From contig CAIZMK010000201.1 in NCBI GenBank assembly GCA_903934035.1, positions 1 through 41,863 on the forward strand: a stretch of DNA of 41,863 nucleotides, written 5' to 3'. Under the pieces are notes generated by a model, which saw only the letters and a list, made by a program, of their open reading frames with translations, was not told the origin of the DNA and ran no database searches. Origin of the DNA: an uncultured Methylococcaceae bacterium. GTDB taxonomy: Bacteria; Pseudomonadota; Gammaproteobacteria; Methylococcales; Methylomonadaceae. Shown piece after piece: positions 22,601 to 41,691 of this stretch (positions are counted from its first letter, which is position 1; the number at the start of each line of letters is the position of its first letter). The position numbers were made by a program, and so were the translations under genes.

Positions 22601-22724
22601 TCGCTTCAGAGTTGTTGGGTGTTTGCTGCAAAATTAATAAGCAAGCCTCTATCTCGTCAAGCGATTGACCACCTTCTTCTGCATACAAGCCCCAAATTTC
22701 ATTAATATCCAAGTCATCGGACAT
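19656..22724 (-). CDS. CheA-type protein: N-terminal Hpt, long middle region, degenerate histidine-kinase core, C-terminal CheW-like domain (CheA3-like)
   Basis: Hpt LFRAMHTYKGNARMLGL (His50); degenerate P4 (LLQICINHRIETPEQRQALSKP; FDDGTAVYDQQ); CheW-like end VVRVDAVQYVIPIQGIQTIIR...VDELIGQQQVLIRPLQGYLASIQGVTGCALLASGEVGLLLDI. Confidence 0.88.
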   Translation of the reverse strand: MSDDLDINEIWGLYAEEGGQSLDEIEACLLILQQTPNNSEAIARLFRAMHTYKGNARMLGLSAIESVAHHSEDMIGLVRDDGVVLANDIIDLLLEATDSLRGMLELSVAKKQDAPPHLATEMCQRLSDKVADCRLSLTQSSSDLATDNVQQAVLQESIIFEPIDNSALADDPVYREIFREIAADNLQNIQAILLNQRDLKLLSDEVEQLHYAAEQMGMHEWSMIMGNFIGLTEPDVESAQILFEALQDLYAQDFSSLSENTTTNSPVIIDAPLQEFFQQLQAPLSRLSELKLALGEQENLQAIITTALELMSLAETHHFVRLTEVLEQLISEINQDDDLIANYFPVFEFNLYSELSTIINNLAIDGNDLAINPRQCLQHWCAEHLFENLLDMCLVVDRLKRQENLPAQCQRMMLLFRQIYHACLHVGLETAAQFCMTLLDLYSRAEIGAVAVDTMLLRSTQSFISDIEFALDSEKFDESPDRAQLKQLLQVSPEVTPENNGSLSSSQIVTRLGLPNSFHNILTPESIKTVLTALEQGLQFYIIRADLNQDENLADQFITWISEGAAEVISNVTFYDGKETLYDFFIASSLPEKAITLALNMLDPTNQQLRLEAVLIDSMNPPLNTEIDPQQENSESIISQSALSSEMLEIIGELVTGQSMAQHLLNHLFETDLVYTVDTIVHDAGQQWHLAKNSVTQVLESSQEQLEKLIQLETHHTALLNRLQDEAIRLRVRPAALLLEPLQAYCDGLARQADRQVNLTTSGDEIELDFSMVEQLKIPLRSLLQICINHRIETPEQRQALSKPAVVQINIQLVRYVDHIKLSVFDDGTAVYDQQSKSDGHLIMEQQLNEIRQQLQIQGGNLLATTTSGFQITLPLAMVAVEGMVVRVDAVQYVIPIQGIQTIIRSEAEQMMQVSADGGKPMLRLSAEDLIPIQLLAGRHDDQALQYPTQRGLYVIVRGDQQRLAIVVDELIGQQQVLIRPLQGYLASIQGVTGCALLASGEVGLLLDISHLLGLKSANLGD

Positions 22725-22767
22725 TGATCAACCCCTAATTTGTTAAATAGTTGAGCGCAAAAAACAC

Positions 22768-23175
22768 TTAGCTAAGTCCCACTAAACGACGCATAACTTC
22801 AGTTAATTCCAAACCACGAGCATCAACTAAATCTAAAGAAACTGCGCCGGAAGGTTTAGTCACAATCGCATCAGCACCTAATGCTCTGGCTTTAGCGGCA
22901 TAGGGTGAGCCGTCTAAAGCGACTGAAGATAAAATGATGACTTTGGCTTTGCTTTTCAATTTAGCATGACGTAAAAACTCTAAGCCATCCATTTCAGGCA
23001 TTTCTATGTCTAATAAAATTAGTGATAAATCTTTATGATTACTCAATTCTTCCAGGGCTTTTTTACCATTTTCAGCAAATGCCACAGCTCTGAAGTCAGG
23101 CATTTTGGTGACAAAGGTGCGAATGACCGAGCGCATCATTACTGAATCGTCAACGATTAATACTTTATGTTCCAT
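22768..23175 (-). CDS. Single-domain response regulator (CheY-like; receiver resembles that of CheB)
   Basis: VLIVDDSVMMRSVIRTF; LILLDIEMPEMDGLEFL; IVTKPSGAVSLDL. Confidence 0.92.
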   Translation of the reverse strand: MEHKVLIVDDSVMMRSVIRTFVTKMPDFRAVAFAENGKKALEELSNHKDLSLILLDIEMPEMDGLEFLRHAKLKSKAKVIILSSVALDGSPYAAKARALGADAIVTKPSGAVSLDLVDARGLELTEVMRRLVGLS

Positions 23176-23377
23176 TTTTGTTCCTTAATTAGTGATTAAT
23201 TAATTTGTGTACTTAAAGAGTTGCATTGTTAATGCCCTCTAGTTTTGTTCAATTTATTTAACTGATGTTCACTAGCCATCTCTGGCATTAAGATTCCTAG
23301 GATGGGTAGAACAACGTGAAACCCATTACGTAATTACTCAAGTAAGTTCGCATTATCAGTAGTTTTCACAACGTATG

Positions 23378-23397
23378 GACAGGTCGCGACCTGTCCC
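23378..23397. repeat. Perfect 20-bp palindrome
   Basis: GGACAGGTCGCGACCTGTCC. Confidence 0.8.
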
Positions 23398-23428
23398 ACC
23401 ATTAGATCGATATCTACTTATGATGTTT

Positions 23429-23546
23429 GTAGGCCGGAATAAGACCACCTAAGCGTAAGCGCGGGGTGGCGTTTCCGGCATAGAAGTACTGCCTAGGCCG
23501 GAAACGCTTTATTCGCTTACGCTCGTAAAGCCTTATTCCGGCCTAT
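23429..23546. repeat. REP/BIME-like repeat, copy inside the che locus
   Basis: GTAGGCCGGAATAAG...CTTATTCCGGCCTA; internal GCGTTTCCGGCA/CCGGAAACGC. Confidence 0.85.
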
Positions 23547-23580
23547 AAATGCATTTTATAAGCCATTATATTTATTTAAT

Positions 23581-23606
23581 GTGGGAGAGGCTAAAGCCTC
23601 TCCCAC
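23581..23606. repeat. Perfect hairpin repeat
   Basis: GTGGGAGAGGCT-AA-AGCCTCTCCCAC. Confidence 0.8.
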
Positions 23607-23660
23607 AAAAATACTTTCACAGCCTTTGTCGTTAATGCACTATAGATTGGGTCGGTTTAT

Positions 23661-25757
23661 TTAAAAATCTCCATAGCCACGTTCATCAGCATCCAGAGGT
23701 AAGATTGATTTAGGTGATTTTTTAGGGCTAGCTTTTGCTTTTGTTGTGTTTTCTGGTTTGTTAGTTGGTTCTGTAATGCTTTGTTGTGCATCAAGCAAGG
23801 CTTTTAATTGACGCAAAATTTCAGGGGTTAAACCTTCCAATCCTGGTATAGACATTGGAGCCTGTTGTACTTCACGTTCCCGTAATTTGAAGCGATTAAT
23901 TTCCTGACGCATTTGACCCGTCACAATACTCAATTCATCAGATGAAGAAGCTAGCTCTTCAGCTTGTTGACTGCTGCCTTCTGCGGTTTTCGCTACTTGA
24001 CTCATTGCAACGCTGATTTGCGACAGGCCACGAGATTGCTCGATACTGGCTGCGGCAATTTCTGCTACCAAGTCTTTGACTTTAGTAACGCCACCTACAA
24101 TTTGTTCCAATGATTCACGGGTTTGACTAACAATTGATACACCTTCAGTGACACGTTTGGATGAGTCTTCAATTAAGGTGGCTGTCTCCCTAGCGGCTTT
24201 GGCGCTGCGTCCCGCTAAATTACGAACCTCTTGGGCAACCACGGCAAAACCACGACCATGCTGACCAGCACGCGCTGCTTCTACTGCGGCGTTGAGTGCT
24301 AATAGGTTTGTTTGGAAAGCAATTTCGTCGATGACTTTAATGATTTTAGCGATATTTTGAGAGGCTTCATTAATGGAACTCATCGAATGAATCATGCTTT
24401 CCATTTTTTGCTGGCCTTGGCTTGCAGCTAAGGCCGCGTTAATGACCAGTTGGTTAGCCGCATTGGCGTTATCAGTATTAGCTTTAACTTGGCTATCCGT
24501 TTCTGCCAGACTGGCTGAAACTTCTTCTACAGATGACGATTGCTCTTCAGCTGTTGCAGCCATATTTTGTGAAGCCTGTTTTAATTCTTCTGAAGAACTG
24601 CCCACTTGTTCAGCGACACTATTAATCTCGTAGAAGGTTTTATTGAGGCCAACAAAGGCATTTTCAAAAGCATCCATAATGATGCGGAAATCACCTTGAT
24701 ATTGCAGTCGATCAACTGTTTGGGTTAGGTCACCATTAACTATAGATTGTGATAATGAGATGGCATCACCAATAATTTGTTTAAGATTGGCACGCAAAAT
24801 TTCTATAGTGTCATTAATAAAGGCTTTTTTTCCAGGGAATTTTTCTAAAGGCGCATCAAAGTTACCTTCGCCAAATTCAGCAACACAAGTAAGCGCTTTC
24901 TTCTTAGCTGAAATATGTGCAGCAACCATATCGTTGATGCCATTTGCTAATTCAATATATGCGCCTTTATATTTGCTGGTATCAATAAATACCTCGATAT
25001 CACCTTTGTCGTGTTCAATGGACATGTTTTTTAAATCGTCTAACAGTCCTTGAATTGTAGATCTCATTAAATCAGCACTCGCTTGCAAGATAGCAGCAGA
25101 ACCAGAACACAAAGCCGAATCGATCAAAGGTTTGCTCAAATCACCATTAGCTACGCCTGATAAAACATCGGAAATATTCTCTATCACTGAGACATCGCTC
25201 CATTCCACTAAAGAGCCTGTTCGTTTGCCATTAGTATCAAATAAAGGGGCTGCGACTAATTCAAAGACACGATTACCTAATCTGATTTTTGCGCTATGTT
25301 TGCCCTGAAGACTAGCAACCATGTGTTTTTGGTGAGCAGGATTTTTATGAAACAAATCCATGCTTTGGCCAATTAATTTTGACTGGTCAAAATGAGGCAA
25401 ATATTTTTTAATATCTTCTTCAGCTTGAGAAAACATAGTCACTAAAGAGGTATTCATGTAGGTAATGATATTATTTTCATCCGCTAACTGAATACAGCTA
25501 CTGAGATTATCTAATAATGATGTTTGTGTAGCATTTTGATTAACGGACATGGGGTTCTCCTGTTCAATTTGTATCAATGATTGCCTAGTCACTGAGACCT
25601 TTGATGGGTCTCGTTGTGGTCGGGCTTTTGTTTTCTTAATCGGGGCTGTTATGGATTCAGTGGGTGTATCTGGTGGCTCTACCGGTTTGACCCAATCTAA
25701 AGGATCATTCATTACTCGGCTGCGACTCGATGGTTTAGCGGGTTTTTTCTCAGTCAT
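23661..25757 (-). CDS. Soluble (cytoplasmic) methyl-accepting chemotaxis protein with PAS domain (TlpT-like position)
   Basis: Signalling hairpin [48 protein letters not shown]-like N-half; no TM segment. Confidence 0.93.
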
Positions 25758-26476
25758 TAGCCACGCTCCATAGAATAGTTCTCAAGTGCCAAGATGGTCT
25801 TAACCAATGTCGCATAATCTTCTGCGCCTGCAGACGTTGGTGCGTAGTCAAAAATGTTTTGGCCATAACCGGGTGATTCCGCTAGGCGGACGTTGTTGCG
25901 TATCACTTCAGCTAGCAAATTCTGTCCAAAGCGTTCAGTTAACCGCGCTCTGACCTCACGATGTACGACTAATCTGTCGTCATAACGGCATAACAACAAC
26001 CTTAGGCGCGACCAAGGAATATTTTCGATTTCCATGCGCTGCATTAAGCGACTGATGCCTTGCATGCTTAAGAACTCTGGTTCCATGGGTGTTAAAACCC
26101 AATCACAAAGCTGCATTAAACTTGCAACCTCAGGTGTCCACATGGGCGGTGCATCAATAATCACATAATCAGTTTGCGTTTTCAATGGTGTGTTTAATGG
26201 CCGTTGCAAGGGCGGATTGCAATCACCGGCAATTAATTGTAATTGTGCTGAAATAATTTCTGGTTGAAATTTCTGATTATCAGCCAACCAATGGCTAACA
26301 TTCCAAGGCAAGGTTTCAGCTCTCAAACCCATCGCCGCTGTTAAGTGGGTCTGCGGATCGAGATCAACTAAGGTAACGGTTTTGCCGCTGGCTTTTGCTA
26401 ATCCAGCACCTAAATTGAGTGCTGTAGTGGTTTTTCCTACGCCACCTTTTTGATTAAAAATTAAAATTTTCATCAT
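25757..26476 (-). CDS. ParA/MinD-family ATPase associated with the chemotaxis cluster (PpfA/ParC-like)
   Basis: Deviant Walker [30 protein letters not shown]; stop overlaps MCP start as TAATG. Confidence 0.9.
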
Positions 26477-26481
26477 TAAGC

Positions 26482-27033
26482 TTATCCAGCAATGACTGCT
26501 GATTCCAAGGCGCTATGTAATTCGATAGCTTGATTGGAAGCTAATTGTTCAATATCAAGAATAATGGCTACTTTGTTTTTTTGTTTACCAAAACCTCGTA
26601 TCACATTGTTTTCGTTGAAACGGCTAGGTAAATCAATGTTGCTTTCGGGAATCTCGATGACTTCTCGGACATAATCAACGACTAGACCAATCATGACATT
26701 ATCAATATCCAAGACGATTATCACGGTGCGTGGTGTATAAGTTTTAGCTGTCATACCAAAGCGCAAACGAATATCCATGATAGGAATGACTTTGCCACGA
26801 AGATTAATCACGCCTTTAATAAAGTTAGGCACATCCGGCACTTCCATGATGCGCTGCATTCCCACGACTTCTGTGACATAGCTAATGCCAATTCCGTATT
26901 CTTCACTAGCAACCCCAAAGGTTAAATACATATCCTCGATATTGTCTTCGTCATTAAACACCAAAGTGGTGCTTTCGTATTCTGAGTCATAATCTGGAAT
27001 ATCGCTAGTTGTCGTATCTGACATATCTGACAT
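26482..27033 (-). CDS. cheW: Chemotaxis coupling protein CheW
   Basis: YLTFGVASEEYGIGISYVTEVVGMQRIMEVPDVPNFIKGVINLRGKVIPIMDIRLRFGM; start MSDMSD preferred. Confidence 0.94.
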   Translation of the reverse strand: MSDMSDTTTSDIPDYDSEYESTTLVFNDEDNIEDMYLTFGVASEEYGIGISYVTEVVGMQRIMEVPDVPNFIKGVINLRGKVIPIMDIRLRFGMTAKTYTPRTVIIVLDIDNVMIGLVVDYVREVIEIPESNIDLPSRFNENNVIRGFGKQKNKVAIILDIEQLASNQAIELHSALESAVIAG

Positions 27034-27043
27034 ATCAACCTCT

Positions 27044-28126
27044 TTAATTATTACTAATGTTTGAATTAAGCGTGGGTCGGCGGACGAAGGCATTCATTAA
27101 CATTGCTGGGATTTGTTCCAGTGCTACCATGTTTTGGGCGCCGCCCAAATTATAAGCGACTTGTGGCATACCAAACACCACTGAGCTGGCTTCGTCTTGC
27201 ACAACGGTGCTGCCACCTGCACGAAATATAGCCAACATACCTTCAGCGCCATCTTTACCCATGCCAGTTAATATGGCAGCAGCGGCATTAAAACCAGCAG
27301 CTTTAGCGACTGATTGGAATAATACATCCACTGCTGGTCGGCTATAATTAACTGGTTCACCGTCGATCAAGGCGATTTTATATTGGCCACCAGAGCGTTC
27401 AATGATCATGTGTTGATTTCCACCCGGTGCTAAAAATACATGTCCTGGTAAAATTCGATCGCCATGTTCGGCTTCTTTGACTTGCATAGAACACAAGCCG
27501 TTGAGGCGTTCAGCGAAACTAGAGGTAAAGCCACCTGGCATGTGCTGCACAATGACGATGCCGGGCGCATTAGCTGGGAAAGCCGGCATTATTCGGGCTA
27601 AGGCTTCTACGCCACCGGTAGAGGTACCAATAGCAATAACTTTATCGGTAGTTTCGCCAATATTGGCAACGGGTTCTATGTCTCTGCGGCTTGAGTTACG
27701 CTTGAAATGATTGACATTAACTTTAGAAGCCGCTTTGACTCGCTGATTAATCTCTGTGAGTAATTTGGGTAGTTCATCGACCAAACCCAATTGTGGTTTA
27801 GAAATAACATCTACCGCACCAGATTCTAAGGCCTCTAAGGTAATGCGTTCACCTTCTTGAGTTAAAGAACTGATGATGACGGTTGGAATTGGCATGATAG
27901 GCATAAAGCGCTTAAGAAAGGTAATGCCATCCATGCGCGGCATTTCTACATCCAGAGTCATGACGTCAGGCTCAAGTTCAATCATTAAATCTCTAGCGAT
28001 ATACGGGTTTGCTGCCTCACCGATCACTTCAAGTTCAGGGTCTTTACGCATGCCGTCGGATAAGATTTTTCTTACTAAAGCAGAGTCATCGACAATCAGC
28101 ACGCGAATGGGTCTTTTGCTGATCAT
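27044..28126 (-). CDS. cheB: Protein-glutamate methylesterase/glutamine deamidase CheB
   Basis: Receiver VLIVDDSALVRKIL; catalytic GTSTGGVEAL, VIVQHMPGGFTSSFAERL, GMGKDGAEGM; start MISKRP preferred. Confidence 0.95.
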   Translation of the reverse strand: MISKRPIRVLIVDDSALVRKILSDGMRKDPELEVIGEAANPYIARDLMIELEPDVMTLDVEMPRMDGITFLKRFMPIMPIPTVIISSLTQEGERITLEALESGAVDVISKPQLGLVDELPKLLTEINQRVKAASKVNVNHFKRNSSRRDIEPVANIGETTDKVIAIGTSTGGVEALARIMPAFPANAPGIVIVQHMPGGFTSSFAERLNGLCSMQVKEAEHGDRILPGHVFLAPGGNQHMIIERSGGQYKIALIDGEPVNYSRPAVDVLFQSVAKAAGFNAAAAILTGMGKDGAEGMLAIFRAGGSTVVQDEASSVVFGMPQVAYNLGGAQNMVALEQIPAMLMNAFVRRPTLNSNISNN

Positions 28127-28941
28127 GAAAAAGGTTTCCAATAAATGCCGTTATCAATAAGTTGCCAGCGTGATTCAAGGTCACGTAAAGAAACAGTGAC
28201 GCTAGTTAGCATCCAGCCACCGGGTTCTGTTACATCATAAATGGCTTCAATAATTTGTTTTTGCTGGGCTTTGTCAAAGTAATACAAGACATTACGACAA
28301 AATACGACATTAAAATTACGCTGAAAAGGGTAGGGGTGATTTTTTAAATTAAGACGGCGAAAGGTGCAAAGTTGACGAATTTCAGCTTTGACTTGATAGC
28401 GGTCATTTTCCAATTCATCAAAATAGATTGGAAGCAGGGTGGTCGGCATTTTATCGATATGCATCATGCCATAAACCGCTTTTTCAGCTTCGGCAATCAC
28501 TACCCCGCTAATATCGGTTCCTAAAATAGCTAAGTGGTGTTTTGCCCAACTTAATCCTCGTTTTTCAGCAGCAATCATGGCCAAGGTATAAGCTTCATCA
28601 CCCGAAGAAGCGGCGGCGCTCCAAATCCTTGCGCCTTCAACAGGCAAATTTGGAAGGATATGGTTTTGGAAATAATCCAGTACCTGAGGTTCGCGAAAAA
28701 AATAAGTATGGTTGGTCGACGCTGCATGGATAACGGCATTAAGTAATTCGTTATCAGCACCTAGCGCCAAACGATCAGCTAAGGTGCCAAGATCAGGAAT
28801 TTTGTATCGATCACAAACACTTTGCATACGATGAATGAGTAATTCGCGTTTTTTTTCGGGGAACACCATGCCGCAACGTTGTTGTAGCCAGTTACCTATG
28901 CGTCGAAATTCTAGGTCGTAAGGCAAAGATGCGGAGCTCAT
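28123..28941 (-). CDS. cheR: Chemotaxis protein methyltransferase CheR
   Basis: TNHTYFFREPQVLDYF; IWSAAASSGDEAYTLAM; FNVVFCRNVLYYFD. Confidence 0.95.
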   Translation of the reverse strand: MSSASLPYDLEFRRIGNWLQQRCGMVFPEKKRELLIHRMQSVCDRYKIPDLGTLADRLALGADNELLNAVIHAASTNHTYFFREPQVLDYFQNHILPNLPVEGARIWSAAASSGDEAYTLAMIAAEKRGLSWAKHHLAILGTDISGVVIAEAEKAVYGMMHIDKMPTTLLPIYFDELENDRYQVKAEIRQLCTFRRLNLKNHPYPFQRNFNVVFCRNVLYYFDKAQQKQIIEAIYDVTEPGGWMLTSVTVSLRDLESRWQLIDNGIYWKPFS

Positions 28942-30164
28942 AGTGCTTGCCCTGCTTTCAATTCTTCATGATCTAAAATGATAGCCACTTCACCGGTACC
29001 TAATAAGGCACAGCCATGACTAGCTCGAATATGTTCTAATTGACCTTGTAAAGGTTTCATAACCACTTGTTGTTGGTCATAAATCTCATCTACTGGCAAG
29101 CCGATCAAACCATTTGAGGTTTTGAATACGACGATGACTAAAGTCTCTAAAGGCGCTAATTGTTGGAAATCTTCACCATAAAAACGTTCCAGTCGACAAA
29201 TAGGTATCAATTCATCTTGAACTCGTATCATCTCTCCGCCGTTGTTTGCGGCTACAGAGCTAATTTGATGTTGCTCTGGACGAAACACCTTATCAACGAC
29301 ACTAATGGGTGTTGCATAAAGTCTAGTTCTGATGCGCATGACTAAGCTATCTAAAAAGGCCAGTGACAAGGGAATAGATAATTTGACCTGTGTGCCTAGT
29401 CCCGTTTGGCTATTAACGCTAATATGGCCGCGCAAACTTTTCATGGTGGCATTTAAAACATCCATGCCCACACCACGTCCTGATAAATTAGTTACGGTTT
29501 CGGCGGTTGAAAAGCCGGGTTGAAAGATAACTTGCCATAAACGCTGGTCGTCAGGTTCTTCAGCAACACCCATCAAACCACGTTCGCGAGCTCGGCTAAG
29601 GATTTTGTCGCGATGCAGACCTTTACCATCATCAGCAACAGTGATTTGAATGTCGCCGCCCAGTTGCACAGCGCTTAAGGTGATTTTGCCAGTTTCTGGT
29701 TTGCCTAAGGCAAGACGTTCGCTGGGAGATTCTAGACCATGATCGGCGGAGTTTCTTAGTACATGTACCAGTGGTTCATAGAGTCTATCGGCAACGACTT
29801 TGTCTATTTCGGTTTCTTCGCCTTCTAATACTAATTCTATTTTTTTGTTTGTTTGTCTTTCTAGTTCTCGAACCATACGGCGCATTCGACGAAAGACTTC
29901 TCCGATAGGTACTTGACGTAATTCAACGGCAGCATCTTGCATTTCGTTTAATAGCATTTGCAAGCGATGGGCTGAATTAGAAAAATCAGGTAGATCAAGA
30001 TCTTTTAAATCAGGGCAGTGAATAACTTCACCCACACCTAAGCTTAATTCGCCAACCAAATCCATCAGGCGATCGACTTTATCGATTTGAATTCTCAAAA
30101 AAGTGGCTTGATTATCGGAGGTCAGCGCTTCTGCTGTATTTGGGTTAATGTTTGAAGCACTCAT
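28938..30164 (-). CDS. CheA-type histidine kinase lacking Hpt (P3-P4-P5 only; CheA4-like)
   Basis: Starts at the dimerisation domain (VDRLMDLVGELSLGVGEV); intact N box VLRNSADHGLESP, DDGKGL, GRGVGMDV; C-terminal CheW-like domain; no Hpt His motif. Confidence 0.93.
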   Translation of the reverse strand: MSASNINPNTAEALTSDNQATFLRIQIDKVDRLMDLVGELSLGVGEVIHCPDLKDLDLPDFSNSAHRLQMLLNEMQDAAVELRQVPIGEVFRRMRRMVRELERQTNKKIELVLEGEETEIDKVVADRLYEPLVHVLRNSADHGLESPSERLALGKPETGKITLSAVQLGGDIQITVADDGKGLHRDKILSRARERGLMGVAEEPDDQRLWQVIFQPGFSTAETVTNLSGRGVGMDVLNATMKSLRGHISVNSQTGLGTQVKLSIPLSLAFLDSLVMRIRTRLYATPISVVDKVFRPEQHQISSVAANNGGEMIRVQDELIPICRLERFYGEDFQQLAPLETLVIVVFKTSNGLIGLPVDEIYDQQQVVMKPLQGQLEHIRASHGCALLGTGEVAIILDHEELKAGQAL

Positions 30165-30549: not shown

Positions 30550-31164
30550 TTATAGGATAATTGTTAAATACTCTTTAAGCATCAAGTTAAAATAGTTAAA
30601 GGTTTGATTTGCGCTATCAAGTGCTTGTGTACATTGCTCGGGTTGGTCTGATAAGGTTTCGATGAAGCTAATAAAATCTTGCCAGTTCTTTTGCGTTTCT
30701 TCTCCGTAGCCGTAAAAAAAACGTCCACCCTTTGTTTGATTTAAACCATGATGTTTTTCTAAGGATCGCGCTATAAGTTGAGCACCTAAAGTCGAGCCTT
30801 CAACGACATACAACACGCCAATCAATTGTCCGATGCTATTAATGACAGGATTTTTTAAACTAGGCGCTGCTTGCAATGGTGCGATATTTAAATAGCCTAA
30901 ATCTTGTTTAATTAAAGGCCACTTTAACCGGCTGTGATAATCAAAGTTAGCATCATACTGGGCTATAAAGTGAATAATTTGCTCTTCTAATACTTGATAA
31001 AGCCGGTCATAAGCTAATAACAATTTATAGTAATTTTCTATCGGATAATCTGCTTGCATCAGTCCGCTTAGCAAAGGATGATTATTGAGTTGTGTATGCT
31101 GATGATGAGTTGCCTCACGCAGTTTAGCTCTGAGACTTTCAGGCATAATAGGCTTTAACGACAT
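30550..31164 (-). CDS. Heme oxygenase (biliverdin-producing, BphO-like)
   Basis: LREATHHQHTQLN; LYVVEGSTLGAQLIARSLEKH; immediately downstream of a bacteriophytochrome gene. Confidence 0.88.
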   Translation of the reverse strand: MSLKPIMPESLRAKLREATHHQHTQLNNHPLLSGLMQADYPIENYYKLLLAYDRLYQVLEEQIIHFIAQYDANFDYHSRLKWPLIKQDLGYLNIAPLQAAPSLKNPVINSIGQLIGVLYVVEGSTLGAQLIARSLEKHHGLNQTKGGRFFYGYGEETQKNWQDFISFIETLSDQPEQCTQALDSANQTFNYFNLMLKEYLTIIL

Positions 31165-31172
31165 AAATATAA

Positions 31173-34100
31173 TTAGCCTCGTAAGCTAAGGTCGCGCCAA
31201 ACAACTTGTATAAATTCTTCGTTATTTAATTGGGTTTTAGTTAGCATGACTTCAACCAATAACTCAGAACCATCAAAGCGTAAATGCGTCCATTCAAAAC
31301 AATGATAACCATTTTGTTTGGCTATTTCGTTCATTGCTTTAGCTTTCTCATCTGATAGACATCCGTCAGGTTGTAAGGTAGGAGATACTTCACTAGGATG
31401 TTTGTTAATAAAGTTCTCTTTTGATGGGTAGCCCAATATCTTTAAGGTGGCTTCATTACATTCGATAAAACGATCATTTTTAATGATCATTATCGGATCG
31501 GTCATGCCTTCAAAAAGATGTTGATAATCAAAGATACTTGTAGTGGCTAAAGACCATGATGGATAAGGATTCCATTCTTTTATCCATGTAGCTAGCTGAG
31601 TAGCTGTCATAGGTTTTGCGATTGCAAATCCTTGTGCAAACTCACAACCTAGGCTTAATAATATTTCACCCTGCTCAACGGTTTCAACCCCTTCGGCAAT
31701 GACTTGTTTTTCCATGCCTAAGGTTAAATTAATGATGTTTTCCACTAATTTTAAGTTTTTGTCCGATTCGGTCATATCAACTATAAAGCTACGATCTATT
31801 TTTAGTGCTTTTATAGGTAATTCTTTTAGATAGGTTATGGAAGAGTAGCCTGTACCAAAATCATCTAAAGCAAAATCAATGCCCATTTCTTGGCATTCAC
31901 TAATAATCTTGGAGACAGTTAATCGATCATCGAGTGCGGTAGTTTCTAAAATTTCAAGTTCTAAGCTACCCGCTCTATAGTATGGTTGGCGCGAAATAGC
32001 GTTTTGTAATTTGTCAACAAAGTTTGTTTGGTATAACTGTCTAGGGTCGATATTAATACTAATGCTGGTTTCTATGCCTTGTTCATTCCATACACTGAGT
32101 TGTTTTAAGGCGCTATCAATAACCCAATTACCCAGTTCTATGCCTAAAGGATGATTTTGCACGATGGGTAAAAAGAGTGAGGGTCCTATTTGACCAGTGT
32201 CTTTATTCCAGCGGATTAAGGCCTCAAATCCCAAGACGTCACCGGAACGCATATTAACTTTGGGCTGGTACAGTAATTCAAATTCGCTTTGATCTAAGGC
32301 CTTTTTAATGGCATCAATAGCATTGTTACGAGTAATGATGGCTTGGTCTTGAGTGCTATCAAAGAAATGAAAGCAGTTTTTACCCTGATTTTTAGCGACA
32401 TACATGGCTTGATCGGCATGGCTTAAAAGAGTTTTAGCATCGGCATCTTCAGCGATGATGTCGTTAGGGTAGAGGCAGACACCAATACTGGCAGATACTT
32501 TTAAGGCTACGCCTTCTAATAAAATGTCAGAGTTACAAACTTTTAATAAGCTGATGATAGGCCCTTCATGGTCGTGTTTAGTTGTCAAACCATCTAATAT
32601 GACGACAAATTCATCGCCGCCTAAGCGTGCTAAGGTGTCACTATCACGAATGTTTAGTTTTATTTGATGACTGATAGCCACCAAAAACTTATCACCTATC
32701 GCATGACCATAATGATCATTGATAGCTTTAAAACCATCCAGATCAACAAATAATACTGCAAAAAAACCACCATAACGTTTAGTTCGACTGATGGCATTTT
32801 CTAGTCGATCGAGTAATAGCAATCGATTAGGTAAGCCGGTTAAATTGTCATAATAAGCAATTTTTTCATAATGTTGGCGCTTATTGATAATGTCGGTAAT
32901 ATCACTACCCACTGCTAAATAGCGCTGTGGCTTACCTCGACTATCAAATATTACAGAGATAGTCGTCATTATGGTTGATAAATTACCCGCTTTGGTGCGA
33001 TTAATGAATTCGCCCTGCCAAAAACTTTCGGTATTCAATTTTTGCCACATGTGGGCATAAAAGCTGGTGTCGTGCATACCTGATTTAAGTATACTGATAT
33101 TTTGTCCAACGACCTCATCTCGACTGTAGCCGGTTAATTCACAAAAGCGTTGATTACAATCTAAAACAATACGATTGAGATCGGTGCTATAGATAATCTC
33201 ATGGGCCACATTAAAAAAATCTAGAGCGGCTTTGGAGTTTCTAAGGTCGGTAATGTCAATGCAGGTTCCTACATAGCCAATGAATTCTCCCTCAGCAGAT
33301 TGTTGAGGAACATAATGTCCATCTAGCCAGCGATATTTACCATCGGCACGTTGTAAGCGAAACTCAATATGGAAGTGTTCTCGACGATCAAATAATCGAT
33401 TATAGTTACTCATAAAAGCATCACGATCTTGGGGATGTATGCCTTTAAGCCAACCAGCTCCTTGTTCGATAAAGTAACTTCGACCGGTGAATTTTAACCA
33501 ACTCTTGTTGAACCAAAAAAGATTTTTATGAACATCCGCTTGCCATATTAAGGCCGGAGTCACATCAGAGAGTTCCCGAAAACGTTTCTCAGATTCAACT
33601 AGGTTGTCTTTCATTAGCTTATGTTCGGAAATGTCTCGCTGAATACCGACATAGTGGCTTAATTGATTTTGCTTATCATAAATGGGTGAAATAGTGAGTT
33701 CATTCCAAAAGCTTGTACCATCCTTTCTATAGTTTAAAATTTCACCGATAAAAGATTGTTGTTCAGTTAATGAATCCCTGATTGCTTGAATATGATCTGG
33801 GTCGGTTTCTGGACCATGCAACATTTTGCAATTTTTGCCAAGTATTTCTTCCTGACTATAGCCTGTTAATTGTTCAAAGTCTCTATTCGCGAAGGTGATT
33901 CGTTTGAAGGGGTCTGTAATGATGATGCCTGTAGGTACGGCATTTAACAGCTCAATATGAGAGTGTTGAGTGTCATTGAGTAGATTTTCTAAATGTAAGC
34001 TATGTAGAAAAGTAGATAGTGATGCCTGGAAGAAATGAGCGAATTTTATCTTTTCTTTAGGCCAGGGTTTACACCGACCATGCGACGTTTCGGACCATGT

Positions 34101-35528
34101 TTCAAATGATTTGCGAGGTGTTAGATGAAACTGATCGTCAGTATGCCTTAAGCCTTCGGTGTTAGTTCCCGCCCAATTAATTTTACGTATTTTTTCTTGG
34201 CGTAACCAAATGATGCAATTTTCCATATTGCTAGTATGTCGTATAGCCAGTATGCCAGCAGCCTTATCTGAATAAGCCTCAGCTTCTATGAGTGACTTAG
34301 AAAGATGATTACACACATAAGGTTCGTCTCCCATATTAACGTTAAGCCAATCTAGTAAGCTGGTAATGTCATTTTGAGTGGGTGTGATCCCTGCTAGAAA
34401 ACGCATATTGTCAACGATAACGATAATGCCGGTTGCGTTAAACAGACTCATTAATTCTGGCAGTGTTTTAGAGGTATCTATAGCCGATAGTTTGCTTAAT
34501 TTAGCAATGGTTTTTATATTCACATCCAAGGCTTTATGGGTCAAACTTTGGTGTTTAAGGAGTCCCTTCATGGCTAGTTTTAAGCTAACTAGCTGGCTTA
34601 TTAAATGCGCTGCCTTGCGCATAGGTAAGGAGATTCTTTTAGGTGTGAGATGATGGCATGCGATCAATCCCCAAAGCTTGCCATTTTGCAGTAAAGAAAT
34701 GCTTAGGGTTGAAGTGACTCCCATATTACGCAGATAAGTGATGTGTATGGGCGATAAGCTTCGTAACGTAGAATAACTCATGTCCAGAGCTTCGTTGCTA
34801 ACTGGGTTGAGTTTGGGAATTATAGATACAGGTATGGCATCGATATCAGTCACACCTCTTACTAAATTTTGCGTGTATAGCTTTCTAGCTTGTTCAGGAA
34901 TGTCGCTGGCTGGAAAGTGAAGGCCTAAATAGTCAGTGACTAGTTCAGTGCGACTCTGGGCTATGACTTCACCGTCCCAGTATTCATCAAACTTGTAAAT
35001 CATGACATTGTCATAAGCTAATATCGATCGAACAGTTTGTGCGATATGGTCAAAATAGCTAGTTAAAGTCTTTTTCCCATCATCCTCAGGGAGTAGTTCT
35101 TGAATTTTTGATAACAGTTCGGTTAAGTTTTCCGAGGCCTCTAAATGACTATCATTACTTAATTCAAGTACAGGAAATTCATCTGATAGATAAACATGAG
35201 CATCCAGTTTGTTAAAATTGGGGCTAATAAAGTCAATAACCCCCATTGCAGTATTTGTATTGGATAGTTGGGCAGTAGCAATTAGTTGGTTAACTTGAGC
35301 AGCAGCCTTTGCTCCTATGACACTATGCAAAGGTTGATCTAGGGCTAGGTCAGCAGAAATTTTTAATAATTCTTCCAAGTTATCGCTGGCTTGAATAATT
35401 GAATGAACTGGGTTAGTGTTTAGAACGAGAGCAATCCCATGTGGTTGAATCGTACTTAATTTATGAATAGGCTCAGAGGCACATTGTTCCATTGCCTGCT
35501 TTAAAGCTAAATCAGAGTGTTCAGTCAT
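31173..35528 (-). CDS. Bacteriophytochrome with LOV-like PAS, additional PAS, GGDEF, EAL and C-terminal PAS domains
   Basis: Cys16-x2-EPIHKLSTIQPHG; GAF DIPEQAR; PHY PRKSF; LOV-like GKNCKMLHGPETDP...LNYRKDGTSFWNEL...GIQRD; RDSDTLARLGGDEF; FEALIRW, DDFGTGYSS, EGVET. Confidence 0.93.
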   Translation of the reverse strand: MTEHSDLALKQAMEQCASEPIHKLSTIQPHGIALVLNTNPVHSIIQASDNLEELLKISADLALDQPLHSVIGAKAAAQVNQLIATAQLSNTNTAMGVIDFISPNFNKLDAHVYLSDEFPVLELSNDSHLEASENLTELLSKIQELLPEDDGKKTLTSYFDHIAQTVRSILAYDNVMIYKFDEYWDGEVIAQSRTELVTDYLGLHFPASDIPEQARKLYTQNLVRGVTDIDAIPVSIIPKLNPVSNEALDMSYSTLRSLSPIHITYLRNMGVTSTLSISLLQNGKLWGLIACHHLTPKRISLPMRKAAHLISQLVSLKLAMKGLLKHQSLTHKALDVNIKTIAKLSKLSAIDTSKTLPELMSLFNATGIIVIVDNMRFLAGITPTQNDITSLLDWLNVNMGDEPYVCNHLSKSLIEAEAYSDKAAGILAIRHTSNMENCIIWLRQEKIRKINWAGTNTEGLRHTDDQFHLTPRKSFETWSETSHGRCKPWPKEKIKFAHFFQASLSTFLHSLHLENLLNDTQHSHIELLNAVPTGIIITDPFKRITFANRDFEQLTGYSQEEILGKNCKMLHGPETDPDHIQAIRDSLTEQQSFIGEILNYRKDGTSFWNELTISPIYDKQNQLSHYVGIQRDISEHKLMKDNLVESEKRFRELSDVTPALIWQADVHKNLFWFNKSWLKFTGRSYFIEQGAGWLKGIHPQDRDAFMSNYNRLFDRREHFHIEFRLQRADGKYRWLDGHYVPQQSAEGEFIGYVGTCIDITDLRNSKAALDFFNVAHEIIYSTDLNRIVLDCNQRFCELTGYSRDEVVGQNISILKSGMHDTSFYAHMWQKLNTESFWQGEFINRTKAGNLSTIMTTISVIFDSRGKPQRYLAVGSDITDIINKRQHYEKIAYYDNLTGLPNRLLLLDRLENAISRTKRYGGFFAVLFVDLDGFKAINDHYGHAIGDKFLVAISHQIKLNIRDSDTLARLGGDEFVVILDGLTTKHDHEGPIISLLKVCNSDILLEGVALKVSASIGVCLYPNDIIAEDADAKTLLSHADQAMYVAKNQGKNCFHFFDSTQDQAIITRNNAIDAIKKALDQSEFELLYQPKVNMRSGDVLGFEALIRWNKDTGQIGPSLFLPIVQNHPLGIELGNWVIDSALKQLSVWNEQGIETSISINIDPRQLYQTNFVDKLQNAISRQPYYRAGSLELEILETTALDDRLTVSKIISECQEMGIDFALDDFGTGYSSITYLKELPIKALKIDRSFIVDMTESDKNLKLVENIINLTLGMEKQVIAEGVETVEQGEILLSLGCEFAQGFAIAKPMTATQLATWIKEWNPYPSWSLATTSIFDYQHLFEGMTDPIMIIKNDRFIECNEATLKILGYPSKENFINKHPSEVSPTLQPDGCLSDEKAKAMNEIAKQNGYHCFEWTHLRFDGSELLVEVMLTKTQLNNEEFIQVVWRDLSLRG
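33609..33971 (-). other. Putative LOV (FMN-binding PAS) domain within the phytochrome (about residues 520-640)
   Basis: Cys567 (codon 33828-33830) in NCKMLHG; Asn/Asn/Gln flavin-contact positions in LNYRKDG, FWN and GIQ. Confidence 0.65.
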
Positions 35529-36274: not shown

Positions 36275-37336
36275 ATGGCAACTATCAAAGAACGCACAGC
36301 ACAAGATGGCAATAAAAGCTTTTTTGCAGAAGTCAGGATGAAAGGCTATCCGGCACAACGTGCCACCTTCAAGCGAAAAACAGACGCTAAAAAGTGGGTG
36401 CAAGATACTGAATCAGCAATCAGAGAAGGACGGCACTTTAAAACCGCCGAAGCGAAAAAGCACACCGTAGAGGAAATGATAGACCGCTATCTTGCCGGGG
36501 CTAATCTTACCAAGACACAAGACGAACATACCGGCTTGCACCTAAGACGCTGGAAGGATGAATTAGGTTATCTGATACTTGCAGATTTAACCGTGGGCGT
36601 AATTACCCAAGTTAAAGATAAATTACTAAGTGAGGATGTTAGAGGTAAACCACGAAGCCCAACCACCGTACTTAGATACATGGCTTCATTAAGCACCGTT
36701 TTAACAACAGCCGTTAAGGATTGGGCATGGCTTGAAGATTCACCTATGAAAAACATTACCAAGCCTAAAGCGGCGCGGGGGCGTGTCCGGTTTTTATCAG
36801 ATGATGAACGCGAACGGCTTTTAATTGCTTGCAAGGAATCCAGTAACAAACTGCTTTATATGTGTGTAATTCTGGCTATTAGTACCGGCATGAGACAGGC
36901 TGAACTGTTTGGCCTTAAATGGACTGATGTAGATCTTTATAATGGTTTTTTGATCTTGCATAAAACCAAGAACGGCGAACGGCGGCGCGTTCCCTTATCT
37001 GGGCATGGTTTGGACTTGTTACGCGAACATGGCAAGGTTAGGCGGCTTGATACTGACTTATTATTCCCGGGCATTAAAAACCACTTAACCCCGATTGATT
37101 TACAGACACCTTGGGAAACGGCACGGAAACGCGCACAGGTAGAGGATTTTAGATGGCATGACTTGAGACATTGCACGGCTTCTTATTTGGCTATGAACGG
37201 CGCAACCATGCCAGAAATTGCCGAGGTATTGGGACAGAAAACCATGCAAATGGTCAAAAGATACGCGCATTTATCAGACGGCCATGTAAGTAATGTGGTT
37301 GCTAGCATGAACGCCAAAATATTTGGTTCATCCTAA
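36275..37336 (+). CDS. int: Tyrosine-type site-specific integrase
   Basis: AISTGMRQAELFGLKWTDVDL; WHDLRHCTASYLAMNGATMPEIAEVLGQKTMQMVKRYAHLSD. Confidence 0.96.
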   Translation: MATIKERTAQDGNKSFFAEVRMKGYPAQRATFKRKTDAKKWVQDTESAIREGRHFKTAEAKKHTVEEMIDRYLAGANLTKTQDEHTGLHLRRWKDELGYLILADLTVGVITQVKDKLLSEDVRGKPRSPTTVLRYMASLSTVLTTAVKDWAWLEDSPMKNITKPKAARGRVRFLSDDERERLLIACKESSNKLLYMCVILAISTGMRQAELFGLKWTDVDLYNGFLILHKTKNGERRRVPLSGHGLDLLREHGKVRRLDTDLLFPGIKNHLTPIDLQTPWETARKRAQVEDFRWHDLRHCTASYLAMNGATMPEIAEVLGQKTMQMVKRYAHLSDGHVSNVVASMNAKIFGSS

Positions 37337-38130
37337 TGAATAATCTATTAAGTCCAGTCGAACTAATAGAAGGCATTGATAAAATGCAAGGCTTGGGATC
37401 TTCAGACTTTGAAATCATCCAAAATATAGCCAGAATTGCAGAAGCAGAAGCGAGAAATATAATTAACAAAGCAGGTTTTGCGCCTGATTTAATGACTTAT
37501 TGTTTTGTACCAGATGATGATTTAAGCCATGGAGAAAATAAAAAAGAACGGTTGAAATTTGAAAGGCTGGCTTGGTATAACGAAGCAAGTCACTTGATTG
37601 ACATTCCTGATATTGAACTAGCGACAGCGGCATTCACTATTATTGAAGCTAGGCAATTCACTTATTTTCTTGATACTGGGCAGGCAGAAAAAGCCATTAT
37701 TTCAATGGCTAATCTTTTAGCTTGTGGCTTGCTTCAGTCAGAACAAGACAAAGAAGGGGCTATTAATGTATTAAGAAACCGTCATAAGAAACAAGGGAGC
37801 AACGGCGGCAAAGGTAAAAAGGGCTTTAAAAAACCTATTAAGCAGTATATCGAAAAGGCCTATAAATCCCTTAAACTTAATAATGAACTTAGTCCAGACA
37901 AAGCCGCACGCAGGATTTTAAAATTATTTACAGATGATAACGCGCAATCAATTTATAAAGAAATTTATCCAGACAATGAACTTTGTCCCATTATTGCCAT
38001 TGAATACAACAACAACGAAAAGAGATTTTTTTATTATGCTACTCATACCCCGGATAAAGAGGATTCCTTAAGCTTTGATAGATTAATTTTTATCATTAGA
38101 GAATTAAGGCGTGCCGGTGATCTTGATTGA
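37336..38130 (+). CDS. Hypothetical protein of the integrative element
   Basis: 264 aa ORF coupled to int by TAATG overlap; no recognised domain. Confidence 0.75.
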   Translation: MNNLLSPVELIEGIDKMQGLGSSDFEIIQNIARIAEAEARNIINKAGFAPDLMTYCFVPDDDLSHGENKKERLKFERLAWYNEASHLIDIPDIELATAAFTIIEARQFTYFLDTGQAEKAIISMANLLACGLLQSEQDKEGAINVLRNRHKKQGSNGGKGKKGFKKPIKQYIEKAYKSLKLNNELSPDKAARRILKLFTDDNAQSIYKEIYPDNELCPIIAIEYNNNEKRFFYYATHTPDKEDSLSFDRLIFIIRELRRAGDLD

Positions 38131-38260
38131 TAAACTTACTTAAAAAATAAAATTTGGAATAGCCGCTATTCAGAAATACACGTTGTTTTAATTACCCCAA
38201 GCCGCAAACCATAACAGTTCGCGGTGATTCTTCTTAATTAATGAATCAGGATAATACACA

Positions 38261-38497
38261 ATGAACCAACAACAAACCGAAAATATACAAATCGCGTGGA
38301 TCTTTTCCACCGTTCAACAATTCCATCAACGCCACCCTGCTTTTACACTAGGGGGATTAAGGCATCAAATTTTTAATGAGCATACAAACGGATTAGCTAA
38401 ATCCGGGGCTGTTATTCGTAATGGGCGGCGGGTGCTTATAAACGAACTTAAGTATTTTGGTTGGCTGGAAGCCCAAAACCAAGCCGGTGCAAAATAA
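38261..38497 (+). CDS. Small excisionase/AlpA-like DNA-binding protein
   Basis: FTLGGLRHQIFNEHTNGLAKSGAVIRNGRRVLINELKYFGWLEAQ resembles HTH excisionase-type proteins of P4-like elements. Confidence 0.65.
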   Translation: MNQQQTENIQIAWIFSTVQQFHQRHPAFTLGGLRHQIFNEHTNGLAKSGAVIRNGRRVLINELKYFGWLEAQNQAGAK

Positions 38498-38814
38498 TGA
38501 AAAATACAGCAATCATTCCAGCAACCCCCGGCTATTTCATTGTTGAACCAGTCACCGAAGGTGGAAAAATAGTTGATGCTGTTTTAATACCTATTATCGG
38601 TTGGTTTATAGACTGTCAAATTACACACCCGATTACCCTTTTTCAAACATTTGAAGATAATAATTATCCAATACTGACACCCGGAAACATTGTATTTGAT
38701 GATTCCCAAGACACCTATAACAGTATTGAAGATTGGATGACTTGCCAAAATGCGAGAGCGCAGACACCAACAACCTTATTTGAATTGAATGGCAAAAATC
38801 AAGGAGCCGCGTAA
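38497..38814 (+). CDS. Hypothetical protein of the integrative element
   Basis: MKNTAIIPATPGYFIVEPV...; TAATG coupling on both sides. Confidence 0.65.
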   Translation: MKNTAIIPATPGYFIVEPVTEGGKIVDAVLIPIIGWFIDCQITHPITLFQTFEDNNYPILTPGNIVFDDSQDTYNSIEDWMTCQNARAQTPTTLFELNGKNQGAA

Positions 38815-39263
38815 TGAATCAAACTAAATTGCAAGAAAGTTATTTGGCGCTTAGTTCCTACTTTGAGAAAGCTATCATTATTACTGAAATAAGTCGTAAA
38901 TTTGAAGCGGATTTAAGTGCTGAAACCGAAGAAAATAAAAGTTTTATTATTCCCATCGTTACCTGTTTTTTATTCCAAAAAAATATTTTAATAGAACTGA
39001 ATGAATGCCTAACCCAGTCTGAAAATAAACCTGATGTGGGCTTATTGCTGGCATCTTTAATAAACTTAAATAAAGCACAACTAGCGTTTTGTGAAGCCGC
39101 ATTTTCAGTAAGTGTTACTTATGGTACTTATGAGCTATTAGAAACCCCGAGATTTTTAAATATTGATGTCATTGGTGAAGCCTTCAATTTAAATCTTGAA
39201 TTAAAATACTTCATTAAAAAAATCAAGAAGACTTTGATTAAGGCGGGCTATCTATGCGAATAA
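38814..39263 (+). CDS. Hypothetical protein of the integrative element
   Basis: 149 aa ORF in a tightly packed operon. Confidence 0.65.
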   Translation: MNQTKLQESYLALSSYFEKAIIITEISRKFEADLSAETEENKSFIIPIVTCFLFQKNILIELNECLTQSENKPDVGLLLASLINLNKAQLAFCEAAFSVSVTYGTYELLETPRFLNIDVIGEAFNLNLELKYFIKKIKKTLIKAGYLCE

Positions 39264-39544
39264 AACCCGAACAGCTTAAGGCAGCTATTGCACCGGCTGA
39301 TTATTATCAACATGAATTACCCGGTGCAATACTTAAAAAATATGGCTGGAATGATGCTGGCTTGTGTATCTTTCATAACGACACCCAGAAGGGCAGCTTT
39401 CGAGTAAATACCCAAACAGGGGCTTATTGCTGTTTTGCTTGTCAGATAAAGGGCGGTGATATTATTGCTTTTGAAATGGACAAGTACGGGCTTAATTTTA
39501 CCGAGGCGTTGGTAACATTAGCTGAAAAATGGGGGCTAACATGA
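39254..39544 (+). CDS. CHC2-type zinc-finger (primase-like) protein
   Basis: CIFHND...YCCFACQIKGGDIIAFEM. Confidence 0.82.
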   Translation: MRIKPEQLKAAIAPADYYQHELPGAILKKYGWNDAGLCIFHNDTQKGSFRVNTQTGAYCCFACQIKGGDIIAFEMDKYGLNFTEALVTLAEKWGLT

Positions 39545-41691
39545 GCGAAATTCCTAAAAGTTACAAGGGAAACCCTTTGATTTATAGCTGGCAATACAAA
39601 GACGAAAGCGGCCAAATACTAGGCGCAGTTATACGCTATGAAGACCCCAACGGGAAAAAAGACGTTGTTCCGTTTTTTAAAAAAAACGGCACAAACTGGA
39701 CAGCGGGTATTGATATAAATCCACGGCCTTTATTTGGCCTTGAAAAACTGGCCGCACACCCAAAAGACAAGCCGGTTTTTATTGTCGAGGGTGAAAAGTG
39801 CGCGGCGGCTTTGCAAGGCCTAGGGATTTGTGCAGTTACTTCATTGGGCGGCTCACAAGCCGCCAAAAAGACCGACTGGACACCGTTAAATGAATTTAAA
39901 TTGGTTTACATATTGCCTGATTTTGATGATTCAGGCGAACATTACGCGCATGATGTGCTTGAACTATTGGCGGCATTGCCACAGCCACCCAAAACCAAAA
40001 CGGTACGCTTGCAGGGACTTGAAAAGGCTGGCGATGTGGTGGACTGGCTTCAAAGTTGGCTTGATAATTGGGACGGTTACGCACCTATCGCCGGTGAATT
40101 ACACGAGCAGATTAAGGTAAAATTATGGGCAGAAATAAAAAGACCAAGCGCCGAACCCAAAGCATTAGTTAATGATGATGCTTGGAGTGTACCCGGTGAA
40201 ATTATTACCAAATTGCCCAAAGTTGCAGCCTTATCCGTGGAGCTAATACCCGAACCGTTTAGGGTTTGGCTGACAGACGTTAGCCACCGAATGCAGACAC
40301 CCGGAGACTTTGCAGCGGTATCAAGTCTTGTTATTGCTGGCTCACTGATTGGCGCGGGGTGTGGGGTAAGACCTAAACAGCTTGATGATTGGGAGGTAAT
40401 CGCTAATCTATGGGGTGCTTGTATTGGTAGGCCTTCAGTAGTTCTAAAAAGTCCTAGCATGAAAGAACCTATGAGCTTACTTGATCGACTTCAGGCGGCT
40501 TATGGTGCGATTTACGAGCGTGATAAAGCCGAAGCTGATTTTGATGGCTTGGTTGATGATGCTGTTTTGAAGGACTTAAAAAGCAAGCTGGACACAAACG
40601 CAAGAGGTAAAGGCTCGCTAAATAAAGCTGACTTACAGCGTTTGCGAGATGAATTTATTAATTTAAATGCTGGCGCAGAATCACAGCCAACGCGACGGCT
40701 GTTTAAAACCAATGAAACATCCATACAAAGCATGACCTTGTTACAAAATCAAAACCCGCGAGGCCTTTTAGTATACCGTGATGAATTAACTGGCTTGCTA
40801 GCACGTTGGGACAGAGAAGACGGCGCAGACGAACGCGCGTATTTTTTGGAGGGCTGGAATGGGAACGGATCTTATACGGACGTCAAGATAGGGCGCGGAG
40901 TAACCGAAGCTAAAACCATTTGTATAAGCTTATTAGGTGGAATACAACCCGATAAGCTTACAAAATACCTACGCCAAGCACAAAAAGGCGGTAATGATGG
41001 CATGCCACAACGCTTACAGCTTGCCGTTTGGCCTGATGAGCCGAAAGACTGGCAGCTAGTCGATATTAAACCCAATAAAGAGGCAAAACAGGCGGCTTTT
41101 TTGATTATGCAAACCTTGGCTGATATGGATTTTTTACAGTATGGAGCTACCCAAAACAGCCATGACGACCGGCCTTATTTTAGATTCGATGCTGATGCAC
41201 AGGAAATCTTTAATAATTGGCTTACTGACCTACAAACCATCAAAATAAAACAAGAAGATAACCCCTTAATGGCTGAGCATTTTGGAAAATTTAGGTCATT
41301 AATGCCTAGTTTGGCCTTGATATTTCATTGTATTGATCTTGCAGGCGGACGGGTAAGCGGTGCGATAAGCCAACGCGCGGCATTGTTGGCGGTTGCTTGG
41401 TGCGACTATCTGGAAACCCATGCGCGGCGTATTTATGCCATGTCAGAGAGTCTGGGGCATGGTGCGGCGGTAAACTTGGCAGATAAGATAAAAGCAGGGG
41501 CTTTGCCCAATCCTTTTACCGCGCGGGATGTTTATAAAAAAGGCTGGTATGGCTTGGCAGAAACAAAAGACGCGGAAACGGCTTGTGGTGTTTTGGTTGA
41601 AGAAAACTGGCTAAGGCGTCAACAACCAGAAAAAGCAGCCGTAGGGCGGCAACCTTTAGCTGATTTTTATATTAACCCGGCTGTTTTATAG
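39541..41691 (+). CDS. TOPRIM-DUF3987 primase/helicase-like replication protein
   Basis: TOPRIM-like VFIVEGEKCAAALQGLG...YILPDFDDSGE; DUF3987-like YRDELTGLLARWDREDGADERAYFLEGWNG. Confidence 0.82.
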   Translation: MSEIPKSYKGNPLIYSWQYKDESGQILGAVIRYEDPNGKKDVVPFFKKNGTNWTAGIDINPRPLFGLEKLAAHPKDKPVFIVEGEKCAAALQGLGICAVTSLGGSQAAKKTDWTPLNEFKLVYILPDFDDSGEHYAHDVLELLAALPQPPKTKTVRLQGLEKAGDVVDWLQSWLDNWDGYAPIAGELHEQIKVKLWAEIKRPSAEPKALVNDDAWSVPGEIITKLPKVAALSVELIPEPFRVWLTDVSHRMQTPGDFAAVSSLVIAGSLIGAGCGVRPKQLDDWEVIANLWGACIGRPSVVLKSPSMKEPMSLLDRLQAAYGAIYERDKAEADFDGLVDDAVLKDLKSKLDTNARGKGSLNKADLQRLRDEFINLNAGAESQPTRRLFKTNETSIQSMTLLQNQNPRGLLVYRDELTGLLARWDREDGADERAYFLEGWNGNGSYTDVKIGRGVTEAKTICISLLGGIQPDKLTKYLRQAQKGGNDGMPQRLQLAVWPDEPKDWQLVDIKPNKEAKQAAFLIMQTLADMDFLQYGATQNSHDDRPYFRFDADAQEIFNNWLTDLQTIKIKQEDNPLMAEHFGKFRSLMPSLALIFHCIDLAGGRVSGAISQRAALLAVAWCDYLETHARRIYAMSESLGHGAAVNLADKIKAGALPNPFTARDVYKKGWYGLAETKDAETACGVLVEENWLRRQQPEKAAVGRQPLADFYINPAVL

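Follow-up and report, generated by a model that had tools for sequence, protein, structure and literature searches.

The window, a stretch of 41,863 nucleotides from an uncultured, methane-oxidizing Methylococcaceae bacterium (contig CAIZMK010000201.1 of assembly GCA_903934035.1), carries at 31173..35528 on its minus strand a gene whose product combines a bacteriophytochrome, a variant light-oxygen-voltage (LOV)-like domain and two enzyme domains for cyclic di-GMP (c-di-GMP) turnover. The open reading frame (ORF) begins with ATG, has no internal stops, fits those coordinates exactly and encodes 1451 amino acids (aa). Pfam detects PAS_2, GAF, PHY, several PAS, GGDEF and EAL domains in the protein, giving the order PAS-GAF-PHY-LOVlike-PAS-PAS-GGDEF-EAL-PAS. 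Eight base pairs past the end of the gene, on the same strand, Pfam identifies a heme oxygenase (30550..31164), the likely supplier of biliverdin, and this gene order is kept in a 90%-identical relative. A scan for sigma-70 promoters gave fewer matches than expected.

The N-terminal part has the hallmarks of a bacteriophytochrome, namely the PAS-GAF-PHY arrangement, an N-terminal Cys, and DIP and PRxSF motifs. All parts of the protein described below lie on the minus strand. The PAS-GAF chromophore-binding module spans aa 1-315 (34584..35528; Pfam, motifs and Foldseek), with DIPEQAR at 209-215 and a candidate biliverdin-attachment cysteine, Cys16, placed by motif position (codon 35481..35483). 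The PHY domain follows at aa 316-512 (33993..34583; Pfam and motifs), with WAG at 452 and the PRKSF tongue motif at 471-475. When a model of aa 1-660 was submitted to Foldseek, the hits were bacteriophytochromes, with XccBphP as the best fold match. At the output end, by Pfam and motifs, the GGDEF domain (32349..32876, motif at aa 970) has an intact RxxD inhibitory site, and the EAL domain (31584..32348) carries the signatures EALIRW, DDFGTGYSS, LKIDRSF, AEGVET and AQG. The catalytic motifs of both c-di-GMP domains are intact in the sequence. An earlier note, made from the DNA letters without database searches, had proposed a bacteriophytochrome module with Cys16, DIPEQAR and PRKSF, joined to GGDEF-EAL output on the same chain, and all of these elements are present. 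It had overlooked the RxxD site, the adjacent heme oxygenase gene, a further PAS domain C-terminal to EAL (31176..31583), and a shortened hairpin in the LOV-like domain.

That domain, the first PAS after PHY (aa 523-641, 33606..33962), was identified from profiles, a tree and a structural model. Its best matches among solved structures were YtvA (100.8 bits) and then dozens of other LOV domains. The earlier note had asked for a comparison of LOV with generic PAS profiles, and here the NCBIfam YtvA_fam model scored 142-145 bits, against 93 for NifL and 85 for the generic sensory_box model. The third PAS after PHY (32877..33230; profiles and residue scoring) served as an internal control. It is not a LOV domain; its nearest solved relatives are MmoS (74.6 bits) and NifL (50), any LOV domain reached about 28 bits or less, and YtvA_fam gave it 33 bits compared with 142 for the LOV-like domain. 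The second PAS after PHY (33231..33596; Pfam and residue scoring) is of the PAS_3 type and also non-LOV, with one of ten diagnostic residues.

A maximum-likelihood tree of 72 domains placed the LOV-like domain on the LOV side, opposite NifL, MmoS, Aer and ordinary PAS domains, across a branch with support of 98/95. Because the sequences were picked for their resemblance to the window domain, which is itself short, only this main split is trustworthy. AlphaFold2 modeled aa 515-655 from nine sequences with a predicted local distance difference test (pLDDT) score of 90. In answer to the structure-prediction check that the earlier note had suggested, all 50 PDB matches listed by Foldseek for this model were LOV structures. 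Superposition on MrLOVe gave a template modeling (TM) score of 0.91 and a root-mean-square deviation (rmsd) of 1.4 with both flanking helices included. The model has a LOV-type fold, and fold alone is no proof of flavin. Between two orthologues, the LOV-like domain is 96.7% identical with a ratio of nonsynonymous to synonymous substitution rates (dN/dS) of 0.04, while PAS-GAF and PHY are 86% identical with a dN/dS of 0.11. The LOV-like domain is under strong purifying selection by these comparisons, and Cys567, K568 and H571 are unchanged in the closest relative.

We scored ten diagnostic residues in YtvA numbering (G59, N61, C62, R63, F64, L65, Q66, N94, N104 and Q123), the set used by published LOV surveys (PMC9098866, PMC4682037). 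The window domain has 7/10, keeping G, N, C, L, N, N and Q, together with the phosphate-binding R79 (R584 here). Canonical long-hairpin LOV domains with Cys score 9-10 (one scores 8), and non-LOV PAS domains score 5 or below. None of the 19 non-LOV PAS domains compared exceeded 5/10 or had Cys at the adduct position; NifL has 4/10 and MmoS 3/10. The four flavin contacts Asn61, Asn94, Asn104 and Gln123 are all kept, as N566, N599, N609 and Q630, within the motifs GKNC (aa 564), NYRKDG (599), FWN (607) and GIQRD (628). By motif position, the candidate flavin-adduct cysteine is Cys567 (codon 33828..33830). The window motif, GKNCKMLH, differs from YtvA at R63 (K568), F64 (now Met) and Q66 (H571). 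The match to the LOV consensus that the earlier note had described stands for the cysteine, the Asn/Asn/Gln contacts, and the K and H changes, and is weakened by the additional Phe-to-Met change, the short hairpin and a score of only 7/10. Chance resemblance to LOV is ruled out by the profile scores, tree and residue counts. A plain NifL/MmoS-like PAS is disfavored by the tree split and by the different behavior of the third-PAS control. By sequence, the first PAS after PHY is a LOV domain, as a variant; it is not a canonical one.

Judged from its sequence, the gene probably encodes a working red/blue two-color c-di-GMP receptor, a bacterial neochrome-like variant of known parts, in which the LOV-like domain probably senses blue light. 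The analysis establishes the domains and motifs, the operon-like neighbor, the kinship with LOV, the prediction of a LOV fold and the selection; chromophore binding, photochemistry, coupling and the direction of output are inferences. Biliverdin made by the heme oxygenase next door would allow PAS-GAF-PHY to read red and far-red light. The LOV-like domain would bind a flavin, most likely flavin mononucleotide (FMN), and blue light would drive formation of a Cys567-C4a adduct, with probably fast dark recovery. Q630 would relay the adduct change to the sheet, and helices would carry both signals through the second and third PAS domains to GGDEF and EAL. These helices are predicted to span roughly aa 491-528 and 634-654; confidence is low around aa 519-532 and 646-660.

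Several observations weigh against this reading. The residue score falls short of published filters, which call for at least 8/9 or 9/10 residues (PMC9098866, PMC4682037). Phytochrome-LOV proteins may have gone unreported because such filters discard domains like this one. In favor of the reading, YtvA carrying either R63K or Q66H still photocycles and only recovers faster in E. coli cells, in 312 s and 753 s, respectively, where the wild type takes 2100 s (PMC4161478, Table 1), and EL222, a natural LOV protein that responds to light, carries Ala in place of Q66 (PMC4161478). Among the further points against it, the Aβ-Bβ hairpin has 11 residues, three fewer than the 14 in all solved or canonical LOV domains compared. 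We know of no tested precedent for F64M, nor for R63K, F64M and Q66H in combination. AlphaFold2 leaves flavin out of its models, and the predicted fold by itself is no demonstration of flavin. Finally, the window domain falls in a Methylococcales clade of 17 short-hairpin LOV-like domains (support 97/81, motif often GKSCxILQG), and Cys, kept in 12 members, is replaced by Leu or Phe in the other five, through four changes on the tree. Eight clade members are fused to phytochromes. Cys is present in the window protein, its orthologue L039 (L and G numbers are our labels for loci and genomes), L040, L041 and L056, and missing from L002, its orthologue L042, and L043. Since Cys was lost several times in the clade, its presence at the right place is no proof of blue-light sensing, and the Cys-less members, three of them phytochrome-fused, indicate that a LOV-like domain can persist without adduct chemistry.

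These fusions and paralogues without Cys make a flavin or redox role, perhaps a light-blind one, credible. The LOV-like domain would bind flavin and either sense redox state or oxygen, as NifL and MmoS do, or work by photoreduction, in both cases without a functional Cys adduct; the protein would then integrate red light and redox state. This is the main rival and, in our estimation, unlikely. It draws on the retention of Asn/Asn/Gln in L002 (GKNLAFLQG), L042 and L043, on the 93 bits of the NifL model, and on the short hairpin, which is common to NifL, MmoS and Aer. MmoS comes from the same order as the host. It is also documented that Cys-less LOV domains can signal by flavin reduction (PMC4682037). 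However, YtvA and other LOV profiles exceed NifL by about 50 bits, the tree sets the domain on the LOV side at 98/95, NifL and MmoS lack C62, N104 and Q123, and Cys567 is kept in both the window protein and its orthologue.

Without any cofactor, the domain would be a passive PAS relay or dimerization element like the PAS9 output of XccBphP, and only red and far-red light would be sensed. We think this quite unlikely. Most Methylomonas-family relatives do have a plainly non-LOV PAS after PHY (L012-L017), the aa 1-660 model is closest in fold to XccBphP, in which a PAS comes after the phytochrome, and R63K and Q66H should weaken the phosphate and ribityl contacts. Conservation of N61, N94, N104, Q123, R79 and Cys, with a dN/dS of 0.04, is nevertheless hard to explain in a domain that holds no flavin. 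A photoactive but vestigial LOV domain, uncoupled from output and leaving the phytochrome as the sole effective input, is highly improbable. The two PAS domains lying between it and GGDEF would fit such uncoupling, yet the domain is strongly constrained, and helical linkers are predicted on both sides of it, albeit with the low-confidence stretches given above.

The host genome (G000) has further genes of this kind. L002 (G000:C55) is a second phytochrome-LOVlike-GGDEF-EAL protein, with a LOV-like pocket lacking Cys. Two stand-alone canonical short LOV proteins of about 155 aa (L124, G000:C87) have the motifs NCRFMQ/NCRFLQ and GVQ, which suggests that flavin-based blue-light sensing is at home in this organism; short ORFs similar to them recur across the family. 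A phytochrome fragment at the start of another contig (L045, G000:C85:3-700) ends just past PHY and has no output domain, and is either a truncated gene or an assembly artifact.

Related genomes encode a second type of fusion, phytochrome-PAS-LOV-histidine kinase (L050, L051/L116, L102 and L105). All of them keep the LOV Cys and most of the motif, and have Thr, or in L105 Ile, in place of Gln123. Thr also occupies the Gln position, in motifs such as GVTRD/STTRD and with NCRF intact, in a widespread group of LOV-like domains with short hairpins (L069, from outside the class, L038, L036, L026, L028 and L031); the short hairpin of the window domain is seen likewise in L069 and L038. The approximately unbiased (AU) test did not separate alternative placements of the short-hairpin clade with respect to canonical LOV domains (p 0.35-0.49). 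We offer only tentatively the idea that the Methylococcales domains are an early branch between redox flavin PAS and canonical LOV, fused to phytochromes within one genus and keeping or losing Cys to yield matched red-plus-blue and red-plus-redox c-di-GMP receptors in the same cell.

We looked for direct PHY-LOV fusions in 151 genomes of the family, 35 of the genus, 387 of the class, 399 of the phylum and 375 of the class to which G503 belongs, and in one GTDB contig scan with DNA patterns taken from PHY. All of these are sampled sets, and a strongly diverged fusion might go unnoticed. Direct PHY-LOV-like fusions occurred in 3/35 genus genomes and in one metagenome assembly labeled Methylomonas (L056). 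Apart from the window's own genome, none was found in the samples of 387 class, 399 phylum and 375 G503-class genomes. Matches outside Methylococcales were LOV-only within the sets searched. In Pedobacter (L060), a phytochrome and a LOV kinase are separate, adjacent genes, and L120-L123 are without a phytochrome. We found no description of a bacterial phytochrome-LOV fusion in the literature searched; the multi-sensor receptors named in a 2022 review are only neochromes, Ppr and cyanobacteriochrome arrays (PMC9614035). The earlier note had thought such fusions uncommon, and rarer still with both c-di-GMP enzyme domains, and this holds in every genome set searched. Among the genomes searched, this combination of a red sensor, a probable blue sensor of the LOV type and c-di-GMP enzymes on one chain was found only in a small Methylococcales group.

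Neochromes (phytochrome3 of Adiantum and the Mougeotia neochromes) are described as phytochrome then LOV on one chain that responds to red and blue light (PMC12826048, PMC9614035). The window protein likewise places a LOV-type domain after a phytochrome photosensor. Neochromes, however, are eukaryotic and join two canonical LOV domains to a Ser/Thr kinase, whereas this protein is bacterial, with one variant LOV-like domain and GGDEF-EAL. The PYP-phytochrome-GGDEF/EAL protein of Thermochromatium tepidum also joins a bacterial blue sensor to a bacteriophytochrome and c-di-GMP enzymes (PMC12826048). In that protein and in Ppr of Rhodospirillum centenum, the blue sensor is an N-terminal photoactive yellow protein (PYP) domain rather than a flavin-type domain after PHY. 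SL2 of Synechococcus elongatus, a LOV-GGDEF-EAL protein that hydrolyzes c-di-GMP in blue light (PMC8846402), shares a LOV-type domain plus GGDEF-EAL with the window protein, but its LOV is canonical and it has no phytochrome. Bacteriophytochromes of the BphG/PadC type, with GGDEF/EAL, have the same red/far-red module, and XccBphP (PAS-GAF-PHY-PAS) has a PAS at the same post-PHY place; both lack a LOV-like flavin domain. Natural off-consensus LOV domains are also known among LOV-delta-Q receptors (PMC9098866) and Cys-less LOV proteins (PMC4682037). In the window domain, by contrast, Cys and Gln are both retained, and the departures lie at R63, F64 and Q66.

If it works as predicted, the protein would be an independently built, flavin-based bacterial counterpart of neochrome, with c-di-GMP rather than a kinase at its output, and a single-chain two-color switch of interest for optogenetics. 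With the Cys-less paralogue in the same genome, nature supplies a pair in which the contribution of the adduct cysteine can be tested directly, and the short-hairpin clade bears on the origin of LOV photosensors from flavin redox sensors.

The nearest named records are from Methylococcales methanotrophs. The closest relative (G118/AMbin126) encodes a version of the protein with 92% overall identity. There, too, a heme oxygenase gene comes after the phytochrome gene, and then two ORFs whose 408 and 272 aa match in length the chemotaxis genes that come next in the window. Those genes belong to a chemotaxis cluster at 19656-30164 (minus strand) with a split CheA. One of its products, of 408 aa, is CheA-like but lacks Hpt; another, of 1022 aa, has Hpt and CheW at its ends, and no kinase domain was found in it. 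The cluster also encodes CheR, CheB, CheW, a ParA/MinD-like ATPase and a HAMP-containing methyl-accepting chemotaxis protein (MCP). This arrangement may resemble the CheA3/CheA4-PpfA cluster of Rhodobacter sphaeroides. On the opposite strand (36275-41691, plus), immediately upstream of the phytochrome gene, a phage-type integrase and a DUF3987 protein likely mark the edge of a mobile element.

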